IMG/VR virus record: IMGVR_UViG_3300026116_000002
Span: 1-64,000 of that record
DNA: 64,000 nucleotides
Strand: one strand, 5' to 3'
Source of the DNA: a virus
This document shows, in pieces, positions 2,290 to 41,273 of the stretch. Both the position numbers and the translations under genes were made by a program. A model generated the notes under the pieces. That model worked only from the letters and a program-made list of their open reading frames with translations, was not told the DNA's origin and searched no databases. The first letter of the stretch is position 1. The number at the start of each line of letters is the position of its first letter.

Positions 2290-2547
2290 TTATTCAAACC
2301 TCACTGCTTCCGCCTCTTCCATAGCCACCTCCAGGCGCTCATATTCCGCGCGGCTCTCAATCTGCTCCTCAGATCGTACGAGCACCCCGTCCTCGTAGCA
2401 CAACAGATTACCGTACTCGCCGCATATCGGACACTGAGGGCAAATGCAATCGTCCACGCTCTTGCCGCACACATCGCACGGCCCATCATAGCCCGCAATC
2501 TCCGGTTCGTTGCCGGTGACGCCGGGAGGATAATTTGACAAGTTCAT
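2290..2547 (-). CDS. Widespread small phage zinc-binding protein
   Basis: 85 residues starting MNLSNYPPGVTGNEPEIAG, a beginning shared by many phage proteins of unknown function. CDVCGKSVDDCICPQCPICG gives six cysteines in CxxC-type pairs, a likely zinc knuckle; the C terminus is an acidic helix (EEAEAVRFE). It abuts the truncated PP-loop gene directly, so the two are probably translationally coupled. Function unknown. Confidence 0.75.
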   Translation of the reverse strand: MNLSNYPPGVTGNEPEIAGYDGPCDVCGKSVDDCICPQCPICGEYGNLLCYEDGVLVRSEEQIESRAEYERLEVAMEEAEAVRFE

Positions 2548-2551
2548 TGAT

Positions 2552-2773
2552 CTACTCCTCTCCGTATAACGACGCGTGCCACTTCAGGCAAGCCCCAAAA
2601 CCGAAACTACTGCGGTCAAGCAACGTCATTCCAAAGCCCTCGACCGTATACCTGTAAGCGATGCTCTCTAGAAGCACCGTGACCGCCGCAAGGTCTTCGC
2701 GGCTGTCGACGTACAGGTGACGCTCCTCGTGCATCGGGCCGGTTAGCCATCTAACTTTGAACAGTTCCATCAT
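2552..2773 (-). CDS. Hypothetical protein
   Basis: 73 residues, MMELFKVRWLTGPMHEERHL... No family recognised. It overlaps the upstream 176-residue gene by 22 bases and lies 4 bases before the zinc-binding protein, as expected in a tightly packed leftward operon. Compact, mixed alpha/beta composition, no membrane segment. Confidence 0.6.
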   Translation of the reverse strand: MMELFKVRWLTGPMHEERHLYVDSREDLAAVTVLLESIAYRYTVEGFGMTLLDRSSFGFGACLKWHASLYGEE

Positions 2774-3281
2774 TGGCCTCCCACCCCGGCGTCACCGCGT
2801 ACACCCCGCGCTTAGACCACGTCAGGTTCCCGCGATCAATCAAGATCGCAGTTAACTGCCTGACCGTCACAGTAGTGAACGGGTAAATGAACTCATCGGG
2901 GCGCTCCTCTTTAAGCTGCTGCACCTTGCTCGCAAGCCACTTCGTAGAGACGAAGCCGTAGTACCCAGTGTTAAGCTCCGACAGAAACGTTTCATCGTTG
3001 GCGACAGCCCAAGCGAGCGAACTCTTCTCCCTTGCCGGGTTGCCGACGTAGCGCAGGATGTTGCCGCCGTACTCCCGGCGCTCCCTCGTCTTCACCTCGA
3101 CCGGGATATCCCACGGCGCGACGACCTCTTCGTCCCACTCGAAATGTGCCTGATACTCCTTGTTAATCAGGTACGCGACCACCTGGTTGACGCGCACTCC
3201 CTTGAACCGCGCGACCTCTTGCAGTCGGTGCAGCACGTCATCGGGCACGCTCCACCGGACGCAGCGTTTTGTGTTACTCAT
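2751..3281 (-). CDS. Protein with N-terminal ribbon-helix-helix-like segment
   Basis: 176 residues. RCVRWSVPDDVLHRLQEVARFKGVRVNQVVAYLINKEYQ (residues ~6-45) has the beta-strand, helix, helix pattern of ribbon-helix-helix DNA-binding proteins. The C-terminal part (VTVRQLTAILIDRGNLTWSKRGVYAVTPGW) resembles a winged-helix-like fold. The ATG overlaps the stop of the TOPRIM gene at 3281. DNA binding is inferred; no target known. Confidence 0.6.
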   Translation of the reverse strand: MSNTKRCVRWSVPDDVLHRLQEVARFKGVRVNQVVAYLINKEYQAHFEWDEEVVAPWDIPVEVKTRERREYGGNILRYVGNPAREKSSLAWAVANDETFLSELNTGYYGFVSTKWLASKVQQLKEERPDEFIYPFTTVTVRQLTAILIDRGNLTWSKRGVYAVTPGWEANDGTVQS

Positions 3282-4291
3282 CAGTACCCCTCTTCATCCT
3301 GCTCAAGCTTTGCAGCAACATTCTTGATCTTCTCTCGCGCCTCATCCTGCCGTGTTAGCGCTTCGTCATACAAGTTATCGTCCCTGTACTGCTCCACTAG
3401 CTTTTCAACTAAGCCCGCAAGCACTGACGGCTCAAGGGCGTCAAGTTCCCACGACTCATTGCCGAACTTGCGAATGTAGCTTTCGGCTCGGCTATCAGTA
3501 ATCTTTGCTGGGTTAGGCGGCGGATTGTACTCGTCGATCTGGTCCATGTTGAGCGCGGCACGCTCCACTTTAAACTCAAGCCCATCGTACGCGTCGTTAA
3601 GATAGCGCGTGAAATACCGAGCGTTCAACGTCTCCTTAGCTTTGCGGTAGAACTCCGGGTCTTCATCTTCGTCTTTGGTCGGTGCCCAAAATCGGTAACC
3701 GGCAAAGATTTTCAGCCGGTCTTCAACGTCGCGGCTCATGTCAATACCGCTTGGGTCGTGGTCTCCAAGGTAAATCACGCAGATATTGCGGCCAGTGTCG
3801 AGCTTCGACTTCATCCGCTTCCCGGCTTCGTGCATGGCCGAGCTTGATGAGTAACCCTTGTTCGCCGTAAACGGGATGTCGAGCCTGCGACACACAGGCT
3901 CAAGCACCCCCTCAAGAGCCTGCTTTTCGACCATAACTTCAATGTGCCACGGTTGATCTTGCCAAGTGTCGAAGCGGAACTGATTGGCGCAAGCGTCGAC
4001 GATACTTGCGGGACTATCCCAATGGCTATTCTGCACGCATTCTCGCCCGCGATCCACGATCATCGACCAATCAACTAAGCCAGCCAGCCGCGCGTCCGAT
4101 AAGATTGAGCCTATACGCTTGTAGGATTTCTCTTCGTTCGTGATGATGTTACGACTAACAAGCTGATAGTAAAGCTGTCTCAGGGACAGGTCATATCCTT
4201 GGGACTGATAATTGCGCAAGATGCGGTTCATCGTCGTAACAAGCTCGCGCGACTCGCTCGACAATTGCGTTGGCTCAAAAAACTCTCTCAA
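3281..4291 (-). CDS. TOPRIM-domain protein related to topoisomerase VI A/Spo11
   Basis: 336 residues with a TTG start at 4289-4291 behind AGAGGAGTAACCAG. The N-terminal half (LSLRQLYYQLVSRNII, YKRIGSILSDARLAGLVDWSMI) resembles the winged-helix region of Topo VI A-like proteins. The TOPRIM motif follows: VEKQALEGVL with the conserved glutamate near residue ~120, then YLGDHDPSGIDMSRDV with the DxD metal site. Such stand-alone proteins occur in phages and plasmids; they may cut or nick DNA, but activity is unproven. No catalytic tyrosine is certain. Confidence 0.7.
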   Translation of the reverse strand: MREFFEPTQLSSESRELVTTMNRILRNYQSQGYDLSLRQLYYQLVSRNIITNEEKSYKRIGSILSDARLAGLVDWSMIVDRGRECVQNSHWDSPASIVDACANQFRFDTWQDQPWHIEVMVEKQALEGVLEPVCRRLDIPFTANKGYSSSSAMHEAGKRMKSKLDTGRNICVIYLGDHDPSGIDMSRDVEDRLKIFAGYRFWAPTKDEDEDPEFYRKAKETLNARYFTRYLNDAYDGLEFKVERAALNMDQIDEYNPPPNPAKITDSRAESYIRKFGNESWELDALEPSVLAGLVEKLVEQYRDDNLYDEALTRQDEAREKIKNVAAKLEQDEEGY

Positions 4292-19423: not shown

Positions 19424-19771
19424 ATGGCATTTATAGACCTATCAGGGCGAACGTTTGGGCAATTCAAAGTGGTCAAGCGCGTCATGAAGCCGGAAGGCAT
19501 CAAGAGCCGTTCGGCGCGGTGGCTGTGCCGCTGCAACGCATGCGGCAAGTCCAAGTCGATCTCGGCTGATTGCCTGACGCGCGGGCACTTTGAATGCTCG
19601 TGTGCTCGTACGAAAAGAGGGCGATCAAGAGACCCGCTGCGGCATCCTAGCGTCTCGTCGCAGCTTTATCACCAGCGCATCGCAAAGCTCGGATGGAGCG
19701 AGCAGGACGCGCTCACGTTGCCTTGTGGGCAGAGGCGCGGGCGGAAACCGAAAGGAGTTAACCATGAGTGA
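19424..19771 (+). CDS. HNH-homing-endonuclease relative lacking the HNH domain
   Basis: 115 residues. The N-terminal ~60 residues, DLSGRTFGQFKVVKR, WLCRCNACGKSKSISADCL and HFECSC, match the zinc-binding N-terminal domain of the HNH protein at 39141-39971. The C-terminal piece LYHQRIAKLGWSEQDALTLP resembles that protein's C-terminal IFKLGWTVEEAVNTPP module. The catalytic middle is missing. It may be a degenerate homing endonuclease or a DNA-binding protein made from one. Confidence 0.65.
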   Translation: MAFIDLSGRTFGQFKVVKRVMKPEGIKSRSARWLCRCNACGKSKSISADCLTRGHFECSCARTKRGRSRDPLRHPSVSSQLYHQRIAKLGWSEQDALTLPCGQRRGRKPKGVNHE

Positions 19772-21322: not shown

Positions 21323-24106
21323 ATGGTGTACGTACCGAGAAAAACCGCAGCGCCCCCTCCGATAGTGCTCGATGACGAACTCATAAGTCAGATCAAGACG
21401 ATTGCGACTGGCTACATCCAGACCGAAGCAACCCCCGAGGCGGCGTACGCCAAACTCCTCAAAACGTTCCACATGCTGCCTGAGAAGGTGATTATCGAGG
21501 CGCTGACGCCGAAGGTACTCCCTCCGATTCCCGCGAGGCCAATACTCCATGAAGGCCAGATCGATATCAAGTCTCATGCCAAACGCTTCAACGTTATCAA
21601 CTGCGGCAGGCGCTTCGGTAAAGATATCCTTTGTATCGACCTCGCGATTGACATATTGGAGAAGGGCGGCAAGTGCGGCTGGTATCAGCCAACGTACAAG
21701 TCTCTCATGGAGGTATGGCGTGCCTGTAAGCGCATTCTCGCCCCGATCATCCCAAAGAATGGCATCAATGTCCTCGATAAGCGCATCGAGGTAACCACTG
21801 GGGGCTTGATAGAGTTTTGGTCTCTTGACGGTGACCCGGAAGCCAGCCGAGGCCGAGACTACGACCGAGTAATCATCAACGAGGCGGCTAAGGCGCGTCA
21901 GCTTCAGACGGCATGGGACTTGGCGATCAGGCCAACACTCATGGACCGCCGTGGTGACGCGTGGTTCCCGTCGACCCCGAGAGGCCGTGATTACTACTTC
22001 GATCTATTCCAGCGCGGCCAGGTTGGCAGTCTTGATTATGACCCGAACTGGGTGTCGTGGCAGAAACCGACGCATGACAACCCTCACATCCCCAAGGAAG
22101 AATTGGTCGACGCCGAGAAATCTATGCCGGTCACCGTCTACCGTCAGGAAATCTTGGCTGAGTTTCTGGACGTTGCGGGGCGGTTCTTCGACGAGTGGGA
22201 ACCTGCGCAGTGGGTCACGTTCATCGACGCAAGCGGCAAGATAAGTCAGCGCGAAGAGGCTTGGCATGTCGTGGAGCCATTCCCGATCCCGGACCACTGG
22301 CAGGTGTGGGCATCGGTCGACCCAGGCACAAGCAAGCACGCTAGAACTCACGCGGTGTTGTTCTTTGCCTCTGATCCAGAGGGCGGGGTTGTAATATTTG
22401 ACGAAATCTATGAAAAGGGGAAGCAGTCAGCAGAGCAAGCAGAGTTATTGCTACTGAAACTTGAGACGTATAAAAGGGCTTGCCCTGTTGACCCTGCTCG
22501 CCGTAATGGACTATGGCGGCTTAATACAGGGCCAATCCCGTGCGATTACGCCAACTTCTTTCCCCCGCCTATCAGTCATACAAGTAATGCGGTGTCGTTG
22601 GCAAGTGCGGAGCGAATCGGTAAATGGCCCGTTGAATATTATCATGAGCGTGGTATTCGAGCCGTAAGAGCCGTAAAAGATCGCATTGCTGGTTGGCGAG
22701 AAATGAAACAATGGCTTCATGACACTCTCCCTATTAAGCCAGATTCTGCCCGACTTTCTAAGGTTGACGGAGAAGACAGTCGCCCTAAGCTTCGCGTCTT
22801 CAGGGGAAGGTGCGCAAATTTAATTCGCACGATACCCCTGATGATACGTGACGAGCGAAAACCCGAGGATATTGAAGAGGACACTCTTGGGGTTGGTGAT
22901 AACGCCGGTCACCTGGAGCAGCATCTCGTTGACTGCTGCTTTATTGCCGGGACATTAATATCAACTAGCTTGGGAGACCGCCCGATCGAGGATATTAAAT
23001 ACGGTGATATGGTGTGGACACGTAAAGGTTTGAGACGTGTAATCGCTTGCGGCCCTACCACACCGCGCGTCGTAGGTAAATTGATGATCGAAAGCGCGGA
23101 AATAGTAGGTACGCTGGACCACCCTGTATGGGTTGACGGGCAGGGGTTTACTGCCTTGGGTGCGATACGGTATAATGACAAGGTCGTTACCGTTAACCCC
23201 AAGGAGTTAGGCAAATGCCAGAGGTACAAGTCTTCGAAGGTGTCACATACCGCCGCTACCCGGAGTCAAAGCAAGAGTGCCATCGCAGGTATTTCTTCAG
23301 TAATAAGGACAGTTTGCATCGGGCTATATGGCGATCGGCTAATGGGGAAATCCCTAAAGGATATCATGTCCACCATAAAGACGAAGACTACTCGAATAAC
23401 ACGCTGGATAACCTTGAATGCCTGTCGCCCGACGAACACCGAAAGCGACATCCGTACAAGGGCAGTGGTAACATTATTTGGTGCAATTTCTGCGGTAAAG
23501 AGTTCAGCGCCAATACTCGGAATGACCGAGATCGATTTTGCTCTAACAGGTGCAAGTCAGCTTGGCGCAGGGCTAGTGGGGCTGACAATGAGCAACGCAT
23601 ATGCTCATGCGGGAAAGCCTTTGTTGTCAACCGCTACGAGGACACTGTTCACTGCTCTCGGCAGTGCGCTAGGCCGGGTGGCTACGAACGTCCTAAAATC
23701 GCTACGACTTGCAGGCAATGCTGGAAGGTTTTTGTTGCACGCAGTCAGAAGGCCATTTACTGCTCTACGGCCTGTCGTAAGCGATGGGATAGAAATCATA
23801 GGGGTAAGGACAGTCTACAACCTAACGGTTGAGGGTTGCCCCGAATACTTTGCAAATGGGGTCCTGGTCCATAATTGCAGGTATGGCCTCATGTCTCGGC
23901 CCGGAGTATCACCGGATGAGCCGGAAGCCGAGATGACGCCGCAGGAAGTGTACGTAAGCACGAACCAGGCGAGGGATGACGCGGCCCTCGACTATCGCAA
24001 CGCCCGCATGGGCCTCAAGCGCGATGGCTTCCACGAAGACGGCTCTGTGAAGTGGGTTGCATCAAAGCGTATCAAGCCCAAGTCAAGGCGACCGATGGGC
24101 GTCTAA
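21323..24106 (+). CDS. terL: Terminase large subunit, interrupted by an intein
   Basis: 927 residues as encoded; about 614 after removal of the intein (residues 539-851). NCGRRFGKD (~93-101) is the Walker A variant of large terminases and RVIINEAAK (~182-190) the Walker B with catalytic glutamate. The nuclease half begins near ASVDPGTSKH (~328). After splicing, ...HLVDC joins CRYGLMSRP, the DxxRYGLMSRP region near the end of the nuclease domain. The enzyme pumps and cuts DNA into the procapsid through the portal. Sequence flanking the intein (about 22380-22930) uses more A/T-ending codons than the ends of the gene, as if converted with the intein. No strong ribosome site is seen. Confidence 0.85.
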   Translation: MVYVPRKTAAPPPIVLDDELISQIKTIATGYIQTEATPEAAYAKLLKTFHMLPEKVIIEALTPKVLPPIPARPILHEGQIDIKSHAKRFNVINCGRRFGKDILCIDLAIDILEKGGKCGWYQPTYKSLMEVWRACKRILAPIIPKNGINVLDKRIEVTTGGLIEFWSLDGDPEASRGRDYDRVIINEAAKARQLQTAWDLAIRPTLMDRRGDAWFPSTPRGRDYYFDLFQRGQVGSLDYDPNWVSWQKPTHDNPHIPKEELVDAEKSMPVTVYRQEILAEFLDVAGRFFDEWEPAQWVTFIDASGKISQREEAWHVVEPFPIPDHWQVWASVDPGTSKHARTHAVLFFASDPEGGVVIFDEIYEKGKQSAEQAELLLLKLETYKRACPVDPARRNGLWRLNTGPIPCDYANFFPPPISHTSNAVSLASAERIGKWPVEYYHERGIRAVRAVKDRIAGWREMKQWLHDTLPIKPDSARLSKVDGEDSRPKLRVFRGRCANLIRTIPLMIRDERKPEDIEEDTLGVGDNAGHLEQHLVDCCFIAGTLISTSLGDRPIEDIKYGDMVWTRKGLRRVIACGPTTPRVVGKLMIESAEIVGTLDHPVWVDGQGFTALGAIRYNDKVVTVNPKELGKCQRYKSSKVSHTAATRSQSKSAIAGISSVIRTVCIGLYGDRLMGKSLKDIMSTIKTKTTRITRWITLNACRPTNTESDIRTRAVVTLFGAISAVKSSAPILGMTEIDFALTGASQLGAGLVGLTMSNAYAHAGKPLLSTATRTLFTALGSALGRVATNVLKSLRLAGNAGRFLLHAVRRPFTALRPVVSDGIEIIGVRTVYNLTVEGCPEYFANGVLVHNCRYGLMSRPGVSPDEPEAEMTPQEVYVSTNQARDDAALDYRNARMGLKRDGFHEDGSVKWVASKRIKPKSRRPMGV
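23171..23206 (+). promoter_or_regulatory. Internal -10 box and Shine-Dalgarno of the nested HNH gene
   Basis: Inside the intein coding sequence a perfect TATAAT (23171-23176) is followed by AAGGAG (23201-23206), eight bases before the HNH ATG at 23215. No good -35 is visible at 17 bp. Confidence 0.6.
23215..23832 (+). CDS. HNH homing endonuclease nested out of frame in the intein
   Basis: 205 residues, +2 frame relative to the terminase. Residues ~47-75, GYHVHHKDEDYSNNTLDNLE then CLSPDEHRKRH, are an HNH nuclease of the type found in phage homing endonucleases (HH...N...N...H). Three cysteine clusters follow: CNFCGKEF...FCSNRC, CSCGKAF...HCSRQC, CRQCWKVF...YCSTAC, likely zinc fingers for DNA binding. 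It has its own AAGGAG ribosome site. It begins directly after the intein N-terminal splicing domain and ends inside block F, so the two proteins share ~618 bases in two frames, both open. It presumably cuts inteinless terminase genes and spreads the intein. Confidence 0.85.
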   Translation: MPEVQVFEGVTYRRYPESKQECHRRYFFSNKDSLHRAIWRSANGEIPKGYHVHHKDEDYSNNTLDNLECLSPDEHRKRHPYKGSGNIIWCNFCGKEFSANTRNDRDRFCSNRCKSAWRRASGADNEQRICSCGKAFVVNRYEDTVHCSRQCARPGGYERPKIATTCRQCWKVFVARSQKAIYCSTACRKRWDRNHRGKDSLQPNG

Positions 24107-29124: not shown

Positions 29125-30318
29125 ATGAAAATCAACGAGATAATCTTCTATCGCAGAAATGACGAAGGCGGCAGTGGAGGGACTGGTATTCCCGCTGCGC
29201 CTGCGGTCACGGAAGCCCCGACAGGGAGTACCACCGACACTGGCATTCCGGCCTCGCTGCCGGTCTCCGAATCTGATGTCGCCGCGTCCACCGAGGAAGG
29301 TCAGTACAAGTTCAGCGTCAACGACGAAAAGACGATGGGCTATGACGACATTCCGATGCATGTGGATGACGATGAGGAAGCCGCTGCCGATGCTGCGACG
29401 GCGGCACCCGCCGCTGACGAAGAGGTAGTCGCTGACGACGCGACCGGCGAGGATGTAGTCACCGAGGAGCCTACTACTACGGCTCCGGTCGTATCTGAGG
29501 CCGCAGTCAAGGCGCTCAAAGCCGCCGCCGACGCCATGGGCATCACCGAGACCGACCCGGACAAGATGCTCGCCGCGATCGAGGCGCGTCAGGCCGAGGT
29601 TGCCGCAGAGCAGCAGCGGGTGCGGGAGACTGCCGAAGCTGCGTTTGAGCAGCAGGCGATCGTACGACTTCAGGACGCCGCCAATCAGGAAGTCATCGCG
29701 CTCATCAATCCGCTGGTGCGTGCGCAGCTTATTCAGGAAGACTTCCCTCTCGACGAAGCTCCTGACGGCTGGTGGGACACGGCTTCTCCAAATTATGACT
29801 CGGCCATGACGAGCCGGTACAACCAGATTTACAATGAATTGCGTGCGCAGCCTCGTTATCAGTCTGCGTACGACAATGCGTTCAAGGGCCATAAGGCGAC
29901 GTACGAAGGTGAGAAGGCGGCGATTGCCGAGTTTGCCACCAAGTACCCGAACCATGCCGTTGAGCTAGTGAGCGATCTTCGTCAGGCCGGGGCTACTGTC
30001 GGCTTTATGGAGAGGATCGCGCACGTGACCGATCAAGCGGTCACCAAGGCTATCGCGATGTCACATTCCGCGATTGCCGCTAAAGACGCCGAGCTTGAAA
30101 CGCTCCGCGCACAAGTTACCGGCCATGCCGACGCCATTGCTAAAGCGAAGGCGGAAGGATTAGCTGAAGGGCGTAAAGCCGCACTCGTTTTGGCTAAGGG
30201 GGCGTCCGTTCCAAACACGGTCGGGGTGGGGGCCATCGCGCCCGCACCGTACAAGTACAACCCGAACCGTGAATTGACGTGGGACGATATCCCGATAGCT
30301 CGTAAGGACAGCTTTTAA
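29125..30318 (+). CDS. Probable capsid scaffolding protein
   Basis: 397 residues directly upstream of the capsid gene. Residues ~15-130 are acidic, alanine/threonine-rich and disordered-looking; ~130-330 are long helices likely to form coiled coils (MLAAIEARQAEVAAEQQRVR, AIAAKDAELETLRAQVTGHA); the end is PYKYNPNRELTWDDIPIARK. Acidic, helical proteins in this slot usually act as internal scaffolds. No protease domain is seen. AACAACAT leader, weak ribosome site. Confidence 0.7.
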   Translation: MKINEIIFYRRNDEGGSGGTGIPAAPAVTEAPTGSTTDTGIPASLPVSESDVAASTEEGQYKFSVNDEKTMGYDDIPMHVDDDEEAAADAATAAPAADEEVVADDATGEDVVTEEPTTTAPVVSEAAVKALKAAADAMGITETDPDKMLAAIEARQAEVAAEQQRVRETAEAAFEQQAIVRLQDAANQEVIALINPLVRAQLIQEDFPLDEAPDGWWDTASPNYDSAMTSRYNQIYNELRAQPRYQSAYDNAFKGHKATYEGEKAAIAEFATKYPNHAVELVSDLRQAGATVGFMERIAHVTDQAVTKAIAMSHSAIAAKDAELETLRAQVTGHADAIAKAKAEGLAEGRKAALVLAKGASVPNTVGVGAIAPAPYKYNPNRELTWDDIPIARKDSF

Positions 30319-36577: not shown

Positions 36578-37636
36578 ATGACCTACCCACGCGAAATCGC
36601 CATTATTTCAAGGCAATGCCCTGGAGACACAACGATGGTGTCAGCCGCTATCAAGGCATTGCATCAGTGCCACCCTGGAATGTTCAGAACTCAGTTCATA
36701 GGCCATTACGGCTCAGGGTCCGATACGCCTCCGGGTAATAATTTATTTGCTGGAAACCCTCATGATAGTCGCATTGACTTAGCACGTGCGCAGCACATTA
36801 CGATAGACTATGGGCCAGCCATCCAACAATGCGGCAGACCGTATCATTTCTTGGAAGGCCCAAAGGAAGATATGGAGCGCAAGCTCGGCGTCAAGATCGA
36901 CATCAAGGAGTTTCGCGGCGACATCTATTTGTCTGACGAAGAGATGAAACCTTGGCCGGGGCTGGCCGAGCGCTATGCGCTTATCAATGCGGGCTACAAG
37001 AACGACTTCACGGCAAAGATGTGGAGTCACTACCGGTACCAAGAAGTAGTCAATGCCACCAAGGATGAAATCCAGTGGGTACAGGTCGGCAGCGCTAACG
37101 ACAATCACCGTCCGCTCGAAAACGTTATTAACCTCGTAGGTCAAACCAACATTCGTCAAATGTGCCAGGTGATGTACCGCGCGGCGTTCGTGGTATGCCC
37201 CGTGACATTTCATATGCACTTAGCAGCAGCCGTGCCTACGCCAGAGGACGGACCTCGTGAAATGCCATTGACTATCGGGCAGTTGCATGAGCGCTATTGG
37301 CATGAGCGACAAGCACAGCTTAGTAAAGGGCCGGGGCCACAACCGTTACCGGGCGGTCAACGGAAAGTCAGGCCGTGTATCGTTTTGGCAGGGCAAAGGG
37401 AGCCTGTGCACTACGATGCTGGCTATCCCGGCAATATCGTGTTAGGTGCGACTGGCAAGCTTAAATGTGGCGTCGGAGTCGGGCAGTCCTGCTGGCGCAA
37501 CAAGACTGTGCCAGTCGACAGCGATATGAACCTGTGCATGAAGCCTTTGCCTGACGAAGAGGGGTTTGCTGTGCCAGAATGCCTTCATCGTGTCAATAGT
37601 TCGGACGTAATAGCAGCCGTTCGCACGTTGTTATAG
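36578..37636 (+). CDS. Heptosyltransferase-like (GT9) protein
   Basis: 352 residues. ISRQCPGDTTMVSAAIKALH is the GT9 N-terminal motif (GDxxxxxxAIxxL), then YALINAGYKNDFTAKMW for the second Rossmann domain and MYRAAFVVCPVTFHMHLAAA for the donor site. A C-terminal ~90 residues contain six cysteines (CIVLAG, KCGVGVGQSCWRNK, CMKPL, ECLHR), reminiscent of metal binding. Last gene of the cassette. Confidence 0.65.
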   Translation: MTYPREIAIISRQCPGDTTMVSAAIKALHQCHPGMFRTQFIGHYGSGSDTPPGNNLFAGNPHDSRIDLARAQHITIDYGPAIQQCGRPYHFLEGPKEDMERKLGVKIDIKEFRGDIYLSDEEMKPWPGLAERYALINAGYKNDFTAKMWSHYRYQEVVNATKDEIQWVQVGSANDNHRPLENVINLVGQTNIRQMCQVMYRAAFVVCPVTFHMHLAAAVPTPEDGPREMPLTIGQLHERYWHERQAQLSKGPGPQPLPGGQRKVRPCIVLAGQREPVHYDAGYPGNIVLGATGKLKCGVGVGQSCWRNKTVPVDSDMNLCMKPLPDEEGFAVPECLHRVNSSDVIAAVRTLL

Positions 37637-37655: not shown

Positions 37656-38408
37656 ATGGCTACTGGACTATATTACGCGGAAGAATCCCGCGTTAGGCTC
37701 GGGGAATCGCTTTCGACAGCCGCAGCGCAGCAGTCGATGTTGTATTCAGCGCACGCTCGCCGCGTAGCCAACCGCATTGCAAAAAAGACCTACTGCCTCT
37801 ATCTGACCTCGACCGTCGACATCATCAACGGCCAAGCCTTCTACCCGATCCCGCATCGCCCGTTCCGCCTTGACACCGTTTGTGTCAACGACGGCAATGG
37901 CAACATCTTCCCGGTTTCCGGCTTGACCTACGCGCAGGCTGACAGTATGTACTACAACTGGCGCAGTCAGACGGTAGCCCCGCTCAATCAGGCAGGCAAC
38001 CTGCCGGTCTATCAAGGTGTCCCGGTCAACTACATTGACGACGGAGCCAAGACACTGATCCTGCTACCCGTACCTAACTACAATGCGCAGGCGGGCTTGC
38101 TCGTCACCGGCTACTTTGGTGTCGACAAATGGTGGGACATGTCCGACGAATGCCCGCTGCCGCAGGACGAGCAGTACGGCGAGGTGCTTGTCTACGGTAT
38201 CTGTGCCGAGCGAGCGCTTGAGCTAAAGAAGATCGACTCGTCCTATGCGTCCGTGCAGGCCGACTACGAGTCAAAATACAAGCGTGGGATACTTGACCTC
38301 TACAAGCAAGCGCTCGGGGCGAATGAGGCGAGGCGCAGCGCTATTCCGACGCTCGGGAAGAGGCTCGGATACTGTGACGGTGTGGCCGTATGGGGAGGCA
38401 CTGAGTAA
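37656..38408 (+). CDS. Head-tail connector (adaptor)-like protein
   Basis: 250 residues. MATGLYYAEESRVRLGESLS at the start, LTSTVDIINGQAFYPIPHRP, AKTLILLPVPNYNAQAGLLV, and a helical C-terminal part (YGICAERALELKKIDSSYAS). Proteins with this beta core plus long helices follow the capsid genes in podoviruses as portal adaptors. The TACAATG before the start may be a -10 box. Adjoins the next gene without a gap. Confidence 0.6.
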   Translation: MATGLYYAEESRVRLGESLSTAAAQQSMLYSAHARRVANRIAKKTYCLYLTSTVDIINGQAFYPIPHRPFRLDTVCVNDGNGNIFPVSGLTYAQADSMYYNWRSQTVAPLNQAGNLPVYQGVPVNYIDDGAKTLILLPVPNYNAQAGLLVTGYFGVDKWWDMSDECPLPQDEQYGEVLVYGICAERALELKKIDSSYASVQADYESKYKRGILDLYKQALGANEARRSAIPTLGKRLGYCDGVAVWGGTE

Positions 38409-39166
38409 TGGGGCAAACCGGCCAGGACATATTCAACCAAGTAGCCACCTTTCTCAGCTTAACCGCGAAGTCTCTGCCTGTTGCCGCGCAGATGTCCGAT
38501 GGCACAGGAGAGAGCACCACCCCGGTCATTGATGGAACGACACAGGTGTGTCTATGGATCACGGAAGGCATGGAGCGCCTTGCTCGGTTGTGTGTGCCGA
38601 TTACCGACACTGCGATCTCCACAGCCACGACTGCGGGGCCAAACGGCATTGTCGGCCCGTTCACGAATATCCAGAGTACATCGTCGAGAACGCTATACGT
38701 CCCGACGTTCGTCAGTATAGGGTCCAATCTGCTGGCGCAGACTAACCTTGGCTTCCTAAATAATATGATCTGGTTTCCTCCTACGCCAGACGGAGACCCG
38801 ATAGCTTGGACTGACACCACGACTTATATCGACCTGTCATACTTTACTACTCAGCCGACGTTCAATATCCAGGGCTATTTCTTGCCAATACCCGTTAACT
38901 CTTTGACTGATCCGATTGACCCGTTTTTTGACGATAACGTAAGACTGGCCACTGCGTACTACGTAGCATGGAGAGTGTGTGCGAAAAATCGAGATAACGC
39001 AGTCTTGCAAGCTCGGGAAATGCCATGCTTAATAGAGTTTGCAAAGTTAGTTAAAGAGACCTATGACCGGTTAGTTTTAACTGATAGCACCCTGTCTCCA
39101 ATTTGGCCCCCTGTTGAAATGGATTCAATCATTCAGTTAACTAAACAATCGGTTCCGAGGACCTGA
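38408..39166 (+). CDS. Second connector-like protein, 3' end recoded by an HNH insertion
   Basis: 252 residues, same overall plan as its neighbour (IDLSYFTTQPTFNIQGYFLP, RLATAYYVAWRVCAKNRDNA). It ends QLTKQSVPRT-stop. Beyond the antisense HNH gene, 40016-40048 encodes QLMKQSVPRT-stop in different codons; this looks like the original end of the gene. The last ~200 bases of the present gene are AT-rich and codon-shifted, as expected if brought in with the HNH element. Likely tail-tube or stopper role. Confidence 0.6.
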   Translation: MGQTGQDIFNQVATFLSLTAKSLPVAAQMSDGTGESTTPVIDGTTQVCLWITEGMERLARLCVPITDTAISTATTAGPNGIVGPFTNIQSTSSRTLYVPTFVSIGSNLLAQTNLGFLNNMIWFPPTPDGDPIAWTDTTTYIDLSYFTTQPTFNIQGYFLPIPVNSLTDPIDPFFDDNVRLATAYYVAWRVCAKNRDNAVLQAREMPCLIEFAKLVKETYDRLVLTDSTLSPIWPPVEMDSIIQLTKQSVPRT

Positions 39167-39971
39167 CCCGTCTCAGAGGAGGTGTATTAACTGCTTCTTC
39201 CACAGTCCATCCGAGCTTAAATATACGATTCCACATCATACCAGCAGGGAGATTAGTATCAGCTTCTAGTGTTACCAATGGGACTCGCTTGCCTTTATAT
39301 GATACAATAACCGTAGACCTCTTATTTGCATCTTGTTCAACACGCGTTGCCCATTTAACATTACCGGAAGCATAGTTGCCGTCATTGTCGATACGCTCTA
39401 TACTGTGGCGCTTTGTTGGCCTAACTCCGACCTCGGCAAAAAAGTCGGCAAACGATGTAAACTCGCACTTAATACCGCGCCCCCCATAATACTTAAATGC
39501 AGGTGTCTTAGGATCGCGACATCGCTGTTTTAAGGATTGAAATACATTGTATTCTGCTGGGTGTAATGTCCGAAGCGGAGAAATCCTAGCTTTATTAAAC
39601 TCAAGGAGCACGCAACCGCAAGACTGGCTATGTCCGCGCCTTAGATTTTTGCCACAAACGGATTTTTCTTTACCGCAGCTGCATCGGCACAGCCAATACT
39701 TTTGATTGCCACGTTTCTCGTCAAAAGCAATAACTGTCCATCGTGAAAACTGAAGACCTAACATGTCTGTTGTGTTGACTGTATGTAATTGCTTCGCAAG
39801 ACAACCGCATGACTTTGTGCTGCCGTTTCTTAAATACGGCAACGCTGCCACAACAGTAGAACCACACGAGCAGTTGCAAATCCACCATGATTTAGCACGT
39901 TCGTTATGGGAATATTTTATAGCTGTAAGGTTACCGTAGGTTCGGCCGGTAATATCTATTTTATTTCTCAT
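39141..39971 (-). CDS. HNH/AP2-type homing endonuclease
   Basis: 276 residues on the opposite strand to all neighbours and AT-rich. Two N-terminal zinc modules, WICNCSCGSTVV...SCGC and LCRCSCGKEKS...SCGC, then KQRCRDPKTPAFKYYGGRGI and GVRPTKRHSIERIDNDGNYA, SGNVKWAT, the typical phage HNH-like core (H..ER.D..G.Y..GN..W). The C terminus IFKLGWTVEEAV is a NUMOD-like repeat. It should cut related phages lacking it. The stop overlaps 26 bases of the + strand connector gene. Start ATG 39969-39971 lacks a ribosome site. Confidence 0.85.
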   Translation of the reverse strand: MRNKIDITGRTYGNLTAIKYSHNERAKSWWICNCSCGSTVVAALPYLRNGSTKSCGCLAKQLHTVNTTDMLGLQFSRWTVIAFDEKRGNQKYWLCRCSCGKEKSVCGKNLRRGHSQSCGCVLLEFNKARISPLRTLHPAEYNVFQSLKQRCRDPKTPAFKYYGGRGIKCEFTSFADFFAEVGVRPTKRHSIERIDNDGNYASGNVKWATRVEQDANKRSTVIVSYKGKRVPLVTLEADTNLPAGMMWNRIFKLGWTVEEAVNTPPLRRVRSSEPIV

Positions 39972-39977
39972 GAATAA

Positions 39978-39983
39978 AGTATA
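39978..39983 (-). promoter_or_regulatory. Extended -10 promoter of the HNH gene, leaderless transcript
   Basis: On the - strand TGG-TATACT; seven bases separate the hexamer from ATG, so transcription should start at or next to the A of the start codon. No -35 match and no Shine-Dalgarno. Confidence 0.6.
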
Positions 39984-40015
39984 CCATAAAAATCAAACCC
40001 ATTTACTCAGCTATG

Positions 40016-40048
40016 CAACTTATGAAGCAGTCAGTGCCGAGGACGTAG
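40016..40048 (+). pseudogene. Stranded original 3' end of the connector gene
   Basis: Encodes QLMKQSVPRT and TAG. It matches the present C terminus (QLTKQSVPRT, 39137-39166) at nine of ten residues but in other codons. It is the remnant left by the HNH insertion. Confidence 0.75.
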
Positions 40049-40049
40049 C

Positions 40050-41273
40050 ATGATCCAGAAGCGCATAGTTTTAGTTCAGGGAAGTCCTAGCCCATTTGTT
40101 GTCCCGAGTGACTTTGGATCGTTGGTTTCCATCGAGTGCCTCGGAAGCGGCGGCACTGCCGGTACCGGCTCTGGCGCATACCTTGGCGGTGGGTCGGGCG
40201 GCGGGGCATACGCTAAGATTACCACTCTGTCAGCGATTGCGGCAGGGAATACTTACGCATTTAACATAGCCCCTGCGACTGATACGTGGTTTGATACTGT
40301 AGGGACTGTATTGGCTAAGTGCGGAAGCAGCACAAGTAGCATCGCGGGGGCGACCGGAGGTCAGGCGTCGTCTTCGATTGGCACTACCAAGTTCAGCGGC
40401 GGCAACGGCGGCAATGGCTTTGCTGGCGGGTCATTGTCTGCGGGAGGTGGCGGCGGTGGCGCGGCTGGTCCGAACGGCGCAGGCGTAAATGGCACCAATG
40501 CGTCATCTGGTGTCGGCGGCACCGGGGGCGCAGGAGACAACGGTTTCGGCGGGGCAGGCGGGGCAGGCGGTGTCACTTTTGGCCCTTCGTTCCCGCCAGT
40601 GACCGGAGTGTCAGGCAGTCATGGTACGGAGTACAGTTCGACACTAGGCTGTGGCGGCGGCGGCGGCGGTGCAGTTGGCGGGCTTGGCAGCGGTTCCTAT
40701 GGCGGATCAGGCGGCTACTACGGGGCAGGTGCGGGCTATGGGTATCCTGGCGATCAAGGATTACCCGGTTTCATCATATTCACGTATAACAGTGCACTGA
40801 CACCAATCATGTGCAGAAAGTGCGTACGACTTGCCGAGCCAAATGACACGACTATAGAGCAGAGCTATCCGTCACCGTACTTCTTACAAGTCACCGTGAA
40901 CATGCCGCTCAGTCTCGTGCAGCAGTACGCGGCGTTAATTCCTACCACCGGCCCTGACACACTGGTTATCAACTACTTCGACAGCCTTGGTCAGCCGCAA
41001 CAATTAACGCGCAGTCTTACCCTCTGGATGTCGGAGAACGGGTACTGCTTCATCGGAAGCGATAGCGCTTCTCAGTTCCTGATTGCCTCGGTTAACCCGA
41101 CGTTCTGGCAAGCTAATGCGGCGACGATTAATGCCCGCAATAGCGGTGCAAACGCGACAGCGCTCTTGCCATGCTGCAACGTAGATCGCTACGGTGCTAA
41201 CACCTTGCTCGATGGTCAGGCGATCCCGCCGCTATTCGTGTACGATGGGGTCGTTATTCCTACTCCTAACTAA
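40050..41273 (+). CDS. Glycine-rich tail/fibre protein
   Basis: 407 residues. FVVPSDFGSLVSIECLGSGG followed by ~170 residues of glycine-rich sequence (GGNGGNGF, AGGGGGGAAG, CGGGGGGAVGG) matches the glycine-rich domain found in many phage tail proteins (polyglycine helix lattice). Residues ~250-407 form a separate beta domain (YFLQVTVNMPLSLVQQYAAL, SLTLWMSENGYCF) with CRKCVR. Likely a tail or adhesion component. Start overlaps the remnant 3' end; ATG lacks a strong site. Confidence 0.65.
   Translation: MIQKRIVLVQGSPSPFVVPSDFGSLVSIECLGSGGTAGTGSGAYLGGGSGGGAYAKITTLSAIAAGNTYAFNIAPATDTWFDTVGTVLAKCGSSTSSIAGATGGQASSSIGTTKFSGGNGGNGFAGGSLSAGGGGGGAAGPNGAGVNGTNASSGVGGTGGAGDNGFGGAGGAGGVTFGPSFPPVTGVSGSHGTEYSSTLGCGGGGGGAVGGLGSGSYGGSGGYYGAGAGYGYPGDQGLPGFIIFTYNSALTPIMCRKCVRLAEPNDTTIEQSYPSPYFLQVTVNMPLSLVQQYAALIPTTGPDTLVINYFDSLGQPQQLTRSLTLWMSENGYCFIGSDSASQFLIASVNPTFWQANAATINARNSGANATALLPCCNVDRYGANTLLDGQAIPPLFVYDGVVIPTPN

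Follow-up and report, generated by a model that had tools for sequence, protein, structure and literature searches.

In fungal mitochondria, the closest described case is that of Glomus, in which the C-terminal parts of atp6, atp9, cox2 and nad3 have been replaced by ones borne by an endonuclease open reading frame (ORF) and the native end lies downstream and matches that of relatives, according to the accessible parts of the report (PMC3630166), which also cites Allomyces macrogynus atp6 as an earlier case of such a mobile ORF (mORF). In bacteriophages, the free-standing homing endonucleases of T4 are described as cutting at sites hundreds or thousands of bases away from their gene (PMC2988022). 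Further articles describe phage nuclease genes at exchange boundaries (PMC10448857) and lactococcal HNH genes (PMC12724721); the available parts of both note no stranded gene end. The subject of the present study is a 64,000-nt stretch (the window) of a single metagenomic virus record of 74,887 bases (IMG/VR record IMGVR_UViG_3300026116_000002), where a homing-type HNH endonuclease gene has very probably entered the 3' end of a connector gene together with a related phage's divergent version of that end, leaving the resident end stranded on its far side. This interpretation is based on a duplicated gene end that flanks the HNH gene with the upstream copy in frame, as in a fungal mORF with a foreign C-terminus, on the synonymous divergence between the copies, on the composition of the tract and on the same geometry in Obolenskvirus, where HNH-free alleles are at hand. 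The steps of cutting, homing and target-site loss are presumed. The locus is laid out as follows:

37656-38408, + strand: SU10-adaptor-like protein gene upstream of the connector gene (Pfam SU10_adaptor, E 1.3e-11).
38408-39166, + strand: connector (adaptor-like) gene, an ORF with a weak SU10_adaptor match; probably a hybrid of a native 5' part and an imported 3' part.
38741-39166, + strand: AT-rich 3' tract, probably the imported segment, with an uncertain left border (about 38741-38885); placed by GC content, GC content at third codon positions (GC3) and analogy with the tract of phage Ab59.
39125-39166, + strand: left, expressed copy of the connector gene end, SIIQLTKQSVPRT-stop (sequence and codon alignment).
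39141-39971, - strand: HNH endonuclease gene, 276 aa, with N-terminal Cys-rich motifs and the core RIDNDGNYA (PHROG phrog_374, E 1.4e-64); its 3' end overlaps the connector end by 26 nt (39141-39166).
39972-40006, no strand: 35-nt gap separating the HNH start codon from the stranded end; it is the sole non-coding part of the insert and too short for a group I intron core.
40007-40048, + strand: stranded, probably native end of the connector gene, SAMQLMKQSVPRT-stop (sequence, peptide pattern and codon alignment).
40039-40042, + strand: GAGG, which lies within the stranded end and precedes the next start codon by 7 nt; Shine-Dalgarno-like as read from the sequence, with a putative function in translation.
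40050-41273, + strand: next gene, an ORF for a Gly-rich protein, starting 1 nt past the stop of the stranded end as in a tight native gene order.

The C-terminus of the connector gene (38408-39166) reads QLTKQSVPRT-stop, and beyond the antisense HNH gene positions 40016-40048 encode QLMKQSVPRT-stop. Nine of these ten residues are the same, and only two of the nine are specified by identical codons. A preliminary description of the window, which had reported near-identical peptide ends in different codons on either side of the HNH gene, is thereby borne out with its coordinates. It had also rightly given the connector end as QLTKQSVPRT, which does not lie just before the HNH gene as proposed there, the two 3' ends overlapping instead; likewise, the likeness found at 40016-40048 reaches weakly a few codons upstream of those 33 nt. 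Over 14 codon positions including the stop, 11 hold the same residue, three the same codon, and eight differ synonymously (the stop counted among them), with 26/42 bases identical. The adjacent identical codons CCG AGG, common to both copies, contain the GAGG of 40039-40042, and the right copy keeps the native spacing to the next gene. Taken together, the codons appear to have diverged in the ordinary synonymous manner of an allele under selection at the protein level, as would be expected if a copied end must remain in frame and functional, so that residues are kept while codons differ. The earlier term "recoded" implies design, and the end is better described as a diverged allele.

Since the window derives from one metagenomic virus record, chance resemblance or an assembly artefact has to be considered, and of all the explanations weighed here this is the most remote. 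A degenerate peptide pattern matches the window at the left and right copies only, where shuffling leads to an expectation of zero. Among the 74,379 pairs of stop codons up to 3 kb apart on the + strand, the connector pair shares 9/10 residues and the next best pair 6/10; the 110,369 such pairs on the - strand reach 7/10 at best, a value that the connector pair alone exceeds. Moreover, the layout recurs in cultured Acinetobacter phages, and the phages that show it include several without relationship to one another.

These phages belong to Obolenskvirus, for which 84 records match the region concerned; nine of them were examined in detail, i.e. Ab59, AP22, IME-Ap7, AB1, LZ35, HZY2308, WCHABP1, IME285 and Brutus. 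Their HNH genes fall into the same PHROG as that of the window (phrog_374), and such a gene is present in 9/84 records, which amounts to a presence/absence polymorphism at one site. In Acinetobacter phage Ab59, a head morphogenesis gene (1640-2410 of the extracted region L211) is followed by the HNH gene and then by NCRCRAKLIIEIPDSMT-stop. Its first 500 nt are identical to those of the HNH-free phage WCHABP1, and from nt 580 on (the last ~190 nt) identity amounts to 54%; the exchanged tract measures ~270 nt. Of 53 bases in the stranded piece of Ab59, 45 agree with the WCHABP1 end, whereas its likeness to the expressed end of Ab59 itself is confined to a 16/20 stretch. The head gene of WCHABP1 continues straight into sequence resembling the right-hand copy of Ab59, which is the behaviour that the preliminary description had foreseen for HNH-free relatives. 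Two further phages, AP22 and IME-Ap7, share the HNH gene of Ab59 (96%), and the 3' tract is 94-98% alike among the three; the first 480 nt of their head genes are no closer to each other or to that of Ab59 (93%) than to those of HNH-free phages. The remnants of AP22 and IME-Ap7 differ from each other, the native stop being lost in both, and are closest to LZ35 (28/35) and IME285 (31/36), respectively. Judging from these alignments, the HNH gene enters alleles together with a foreign gene end, their own last codons staying on the far side. By the same comparison, this foreign end has a related allele that occurs in phages devoid of this HNH gene as well.

Two side observations concern the same site. 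The Ab59 HNH gene (L211 2475-3283) is interrupted in its N-terminal part, with the longest ORF starting from 2576, and the AP22 copy is open throughout. In IME285, a different antisense ORF (L228 1371-2264, - strand) with weak PHROG matches only overlaps the same head-gene 3' end by 7 nt; as a guess from its sequence, it could be a candidate Vsr/EDxHD-type endonuclease. No stranded end was found beside it.

Composition points in the same direction for the window. The last 420 nt of the connector gene have a GC content of 0.448, lower than all 1,816 other 420-nt windows of the structural region at 21-59 kb, in line with the AT-rich tail noted before. The 3' tract and the HNH gene are AT-rich (GC3 0.397, compared with 0.56-0.81 in the nine structural-region genes tested, the connector gene included). 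As the AT-richness of the HNH gene is shared by the final ~280-420 nt of the connector gene, the exchange probably involved some hundreds of nucleotides and not just 33.

A survey for similar cases covered 192 loci, namely 175 from viral contigs and prokaryote genomes that encode relatives of the HNH protein, 16 from a phage collection and the window, and searched for the end of a neighbouring gene that recurs, with its stop, on the far side of the HNH gene. Among the 175, two further loci with the layout of the window were found, both from gut phages. In L029, a terminase-like gene ends in PIQSERARLISLRKR-stop and PIQSERARLISLRRR-stop stands behind the HNH gene (the pair is also written PIQSERARLISLRKR/-RRR); 12/16 codon positions, stop included, are changed synonymously. 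The best phage matches of this gene are annotated as terminase, DNA-packaging or hypothetical protein, and its PHROG matches are without known function. The motif AGGAGG can be read within the stranded codons. In L067, a DUF1064 gene ends in KLLLYQYGIKIKET-stop, with KLMLERYGIRILET-stop behind the HNH gene. Relatives of both were sought by locus DNA in 400 genomes drawn from the family of the L067 genome, among which L029 has no near relative. The best relative of L067 (L188, protein 63% identical) has an end that matches each copy at 29/45; being equally close to both, it does not decide the direction of replacement. Directly past the stop of the swapped end, L029 also holds a hairpin-like repeat (GGGCGAGC...GCTCGTCCC, within 3594-3986) and then more DNA before the HNH start, and the insert therefore comprises more than the endonuclease gene.

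In a null of mismatched loci, 1/1,760 comparisons reached a score of 45. With a stricter control, which demands that the far copy is a short fragment adjoining the insert, 3/192 HNH ORFs (window included) score at least 40, compared with 0/742 other ORFs. The stop-anchored scan separates HNH ORFs from others only once paralogues and long frames are excluded, and a general local scan is noisy, 3% of mismatched pairs reaching 45; Ab59 was picked by eye from the latter (score 52), since its match falls at an annotated gene end. Several candidates for a stranded end were discarded: L031, where ORF positions point to a preceding HNH-like paralogue instead; L158, a false lead with an ambiguous score of 29; and L054, L173, L146/L147 and L050/L153 (low complexity), false leads in the duplication scans. 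Likewise, L016 was rejected because two whole paralogues flank its HNH gene. These complete genes of ~123 codons each lie on the opposite strand (2447-4136), and possibly represent a case in which an HNH gene brought along a whole spare gene.

The L016 arrangement, as well as the two SU10-adaptor-like genes in tandem at the window locus, would fit an origin by tandem duplication, in which a second connector copy formed, the HNH gene landed between the copies and the second one decayed to its last 13 codons. This course of events is nevertheless very improbable. The stranded piece in Obolenskvirus resembles the gene end of relatives that lack the HNH gene, and no second copy is annotated in the regions retrieved from them; moreover, the remnant in the window lies at the native distance from the next gene.

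The HNH protein of the window retains the invariant columns of a 13-sequence alignment. HNH genes are common in phage introns, and the insert might be taken for a self-splicing element, i.e. a group I intron or an intein, with the right copy as the true last exon. For an insert of the ShiLan type in mycobacteriophages, a likeness between its start and the sequence behind it is discussed as a possible sign of an intron in the available text of PMC11855218. In the window, the HNH gene lies outside any self-splicing intron or intein. The 35 non-coding nucleotides leave no room for an intron core, and no Rfam intron was detected at E <=1 in L017 (the HNH region of the window with its flanks), L029 or L067. 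Either form is further opposed by the antisense orientation of the HNH gene, which overlaps the connector end, and by the stop codon that precedes the insert and terminates the left copy, and an intein also by the lack of a Hint match; in addition, the likeness of the two copies exists at the protein level, with synonymous changes. A self-splicing element is accordingly barely credible. A scan for promoters and terminators around the HNH gene gave nothing beyond chance, and in a distance-only tree of 182 HNH sequences the lineages with swapped ends do not cluster. Elsewhere in the window, a ~115-aa frame (19424-19771, + strand) has both the Cys-rich N-terminal motif and the C-terminal helical motif of the HNH family and is devoid of the HNH core; it is perhaps a deletion derivative or a DNA-binding-only relative of this family.

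Several points weigh against a replacement driven by the HNH element. With a looser control, scores of at least 45 fail to separate the HNH loci (3/192) from control ORFs (5/309), where the matches, judged by their printed sequences, are paralogues, repeats or low-complexity stretches. The stricter criteria were fixed after the cases were known, and without the window 2/191 loci are left. About 1.4% of 420-nt windows across the whole 64 kb are as low in GC as the connector tail. The GC3 change point inside the connector gene is marginal (77/2,000 shuffles reach it); because the change is gradual as well, only a rough position can be given for the left border of the foreign tract. The AP22 remnant is nearly tied between native ends (LZ35 28/35, WCHABP1 22/24). 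No usable relative of the phage represented by the window turned up in the collections searched, be it by blastn of the region, by tblastn of both adaptors, the portal and the terminase against the phage collection (the portal and terminase matches being remote), or by scanning IMG/VR with single proteins (the two adaptors, the 1158-aa protein and the one encoded at 29125); a scan for the conserved peptide gave two matches, both out of frame relative to local genes, and a search with a two-row portal alignment one distant match. For lack of such a relative, it is composition, spacing and analogy that indicate in which direction the replacement went in the window. The proposal of the preliminary description that an HNH gene brought a foreign gene end and stranded the native one holds by direct comparison in Obolenskvirus, and for the window it is an inference from composition and gene spacing.

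Finally, ten records beyond the nine HNH-bearing ones show partial or weaker matches to the tract and do not have this HNH gene, among them AB1, Acb75, Acba_21 and Highwayman with a similarity of 80-84%. As AB1-type ends occur independently of the HNH gene, the swapped end may not be custom cargo but an allele that was co-converted. Together with the general variability of the head-gene end in Obolenskvirus, they also favor ordinary mosaic recombination, by which a divergent 3' end would have been exchanged with the HNH gene as an incidental passenger and with a sloppy right junction, the enzyme being uninvolved. This rival is unlikely, though it carries more weight than the other alternatives. 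In L029, L067, Ab59, AP22 and IME-Ap7, the remnant starts within a few nucleotides of the HNH stop codon; a single sloppy junction would not recur at the same spot. Furthermore, the native remnants differ in the three Obolenskvirus phages, and gene and tract occur together in 9/9 records, the nine HNH-bearing ones being exactly those with the full-length tract at >=94%.

For the replacement by an HNH element, the following course can be envisaged. The endonuclease would cut phages without the HNH gene near this gene end, and repair of the break would copy the HNH gene with its flanking tract. The left crossover would fall inside the conserved body of the gene, and the right one at the start of what becomes the native remnant. 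The imported 3' end would then be fused in frame to the resident 5' part, which restores a complete protein, and the last codons of the resident would be pushed beyond the HNH gene and no longer be translated as part of the connector. The next gene probably still has its ribosome-binding site within these stranded codons, and the remnant may persist for this very reason, as suggested by GAGG in the window and AGGAGG in L029. The diverged end would keep the connector gene working and probably no longer fit the enzyme. The preliminary description had proposed that such an end removes the cleavage site; this is a conjecture, and the free-standing endonucleases of T4 have cut sites far from their own gene (PMC2988022). 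Such a course would explain how intron-free endonuclease genes settle in essential phage genes without a splicing device. The cases described here show endonuclease genes travelling between phages with swapped structural-gene ends. They also provide a sequence signature for finding such events in raw genomes, namely a nuclease gene next to a stranded gene end with synonymous divergence, and Obolenskvirus supplies a ready test pair in phages with one side identical and the other swapped.

Some other features of the window deserve mention. The two SU10-adaptor-like genes stand in tandem at 37656-39166 (+ strand), the second being a weak match: the connector protein aligns with Pfam SU10_adaptor over residues 33-213 at E 7e-4, which misses the Pfam cut-off. 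The structural gene cluster also includes a family 9 glycosyltransferase-like gene (36578-37636, + strand). In the ORF for the terminase large subunit (21323-24106, + strand, 927 aa), a Hint (intein-type) domain starts from residue 538; similar stretches align in the terminase of a Rhodobacteraceae phage (L021) and in that of Acinetobacter phage Highwayman (L022).

Prophages that rely on an integrase carry their own version of the 3' end of their target gene, which is thereby restored, and make use of a site-specific recombinase. The insert in the window differs from them in that no such recombinase is involved. The T4-type seg and mob genes of intronless homing resemble the phage case as intron-free endonuclease genes that move with co-converted flanks, and differ by intergenic insertion, distant cut sites and gene-splitting insertions, with no stranded native end described in the available parts of the source (PMC2988022). 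Perhaps a related case is the ShiLan element in mycobacteriophage methylase genes, described as an HNH insertion into a phage gene for which no splicing device is known, and in which the first 11 residues of the insert in the frame of the gene resemble the first 11 behind the insertion site (PMC11855218). There, the HNH sequence is out of frame and the insert is open in the host frame, so that the host protein is thought to run through (PMC11855218), whereas the gene in the window stops at the copied end.

The closest likeness is with the fungal mORFs, in which, as far as the accessible parts of the report go, an endonuclease gene with a foreign 3' end is fused in frame to a resident gene, the native end lies downstream and matches endonuclease-free relatives (as the Ab59 remnant does among phages), and the differences are largely synonymous (PMC3630166). 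The fungal elements differ in having LAGLIDADG or GIY-YIG enzymes, in their mitochondrial setting and in hybrid transcripts seen by reverse transcription PCR (RT-PCR), and their endonuclease-driven mobility is stated to have been shown biochemically (PMC3630166). The phage elements, for their part, occupy structural or packaging genes, encode HNH enzymes and, in the window, lie antisense. In the open-licence literature searched, which leaves out most subscription journals, no report was recognized of an HNH element that replaced the end of a phage gene and stranded the native one. As a tentative generalization, which we hold to be somewhat less than an even bet, tailed phages could host a recurring, non-splicing mobile element that consists of an HNH gene and a spare end of the target gene, diverged and proof against cleavage, by which essential coding parts (connector, terminase, head morphogenesis) can be invaded harmlessly; it would be the counterpart of the fungal mORF and a natural version of the codon-altered repair template of genome editing. 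The arrangement as such is known from fungal mitochondria, and what is new here is its occurrence in phages and with HNH enzymes.

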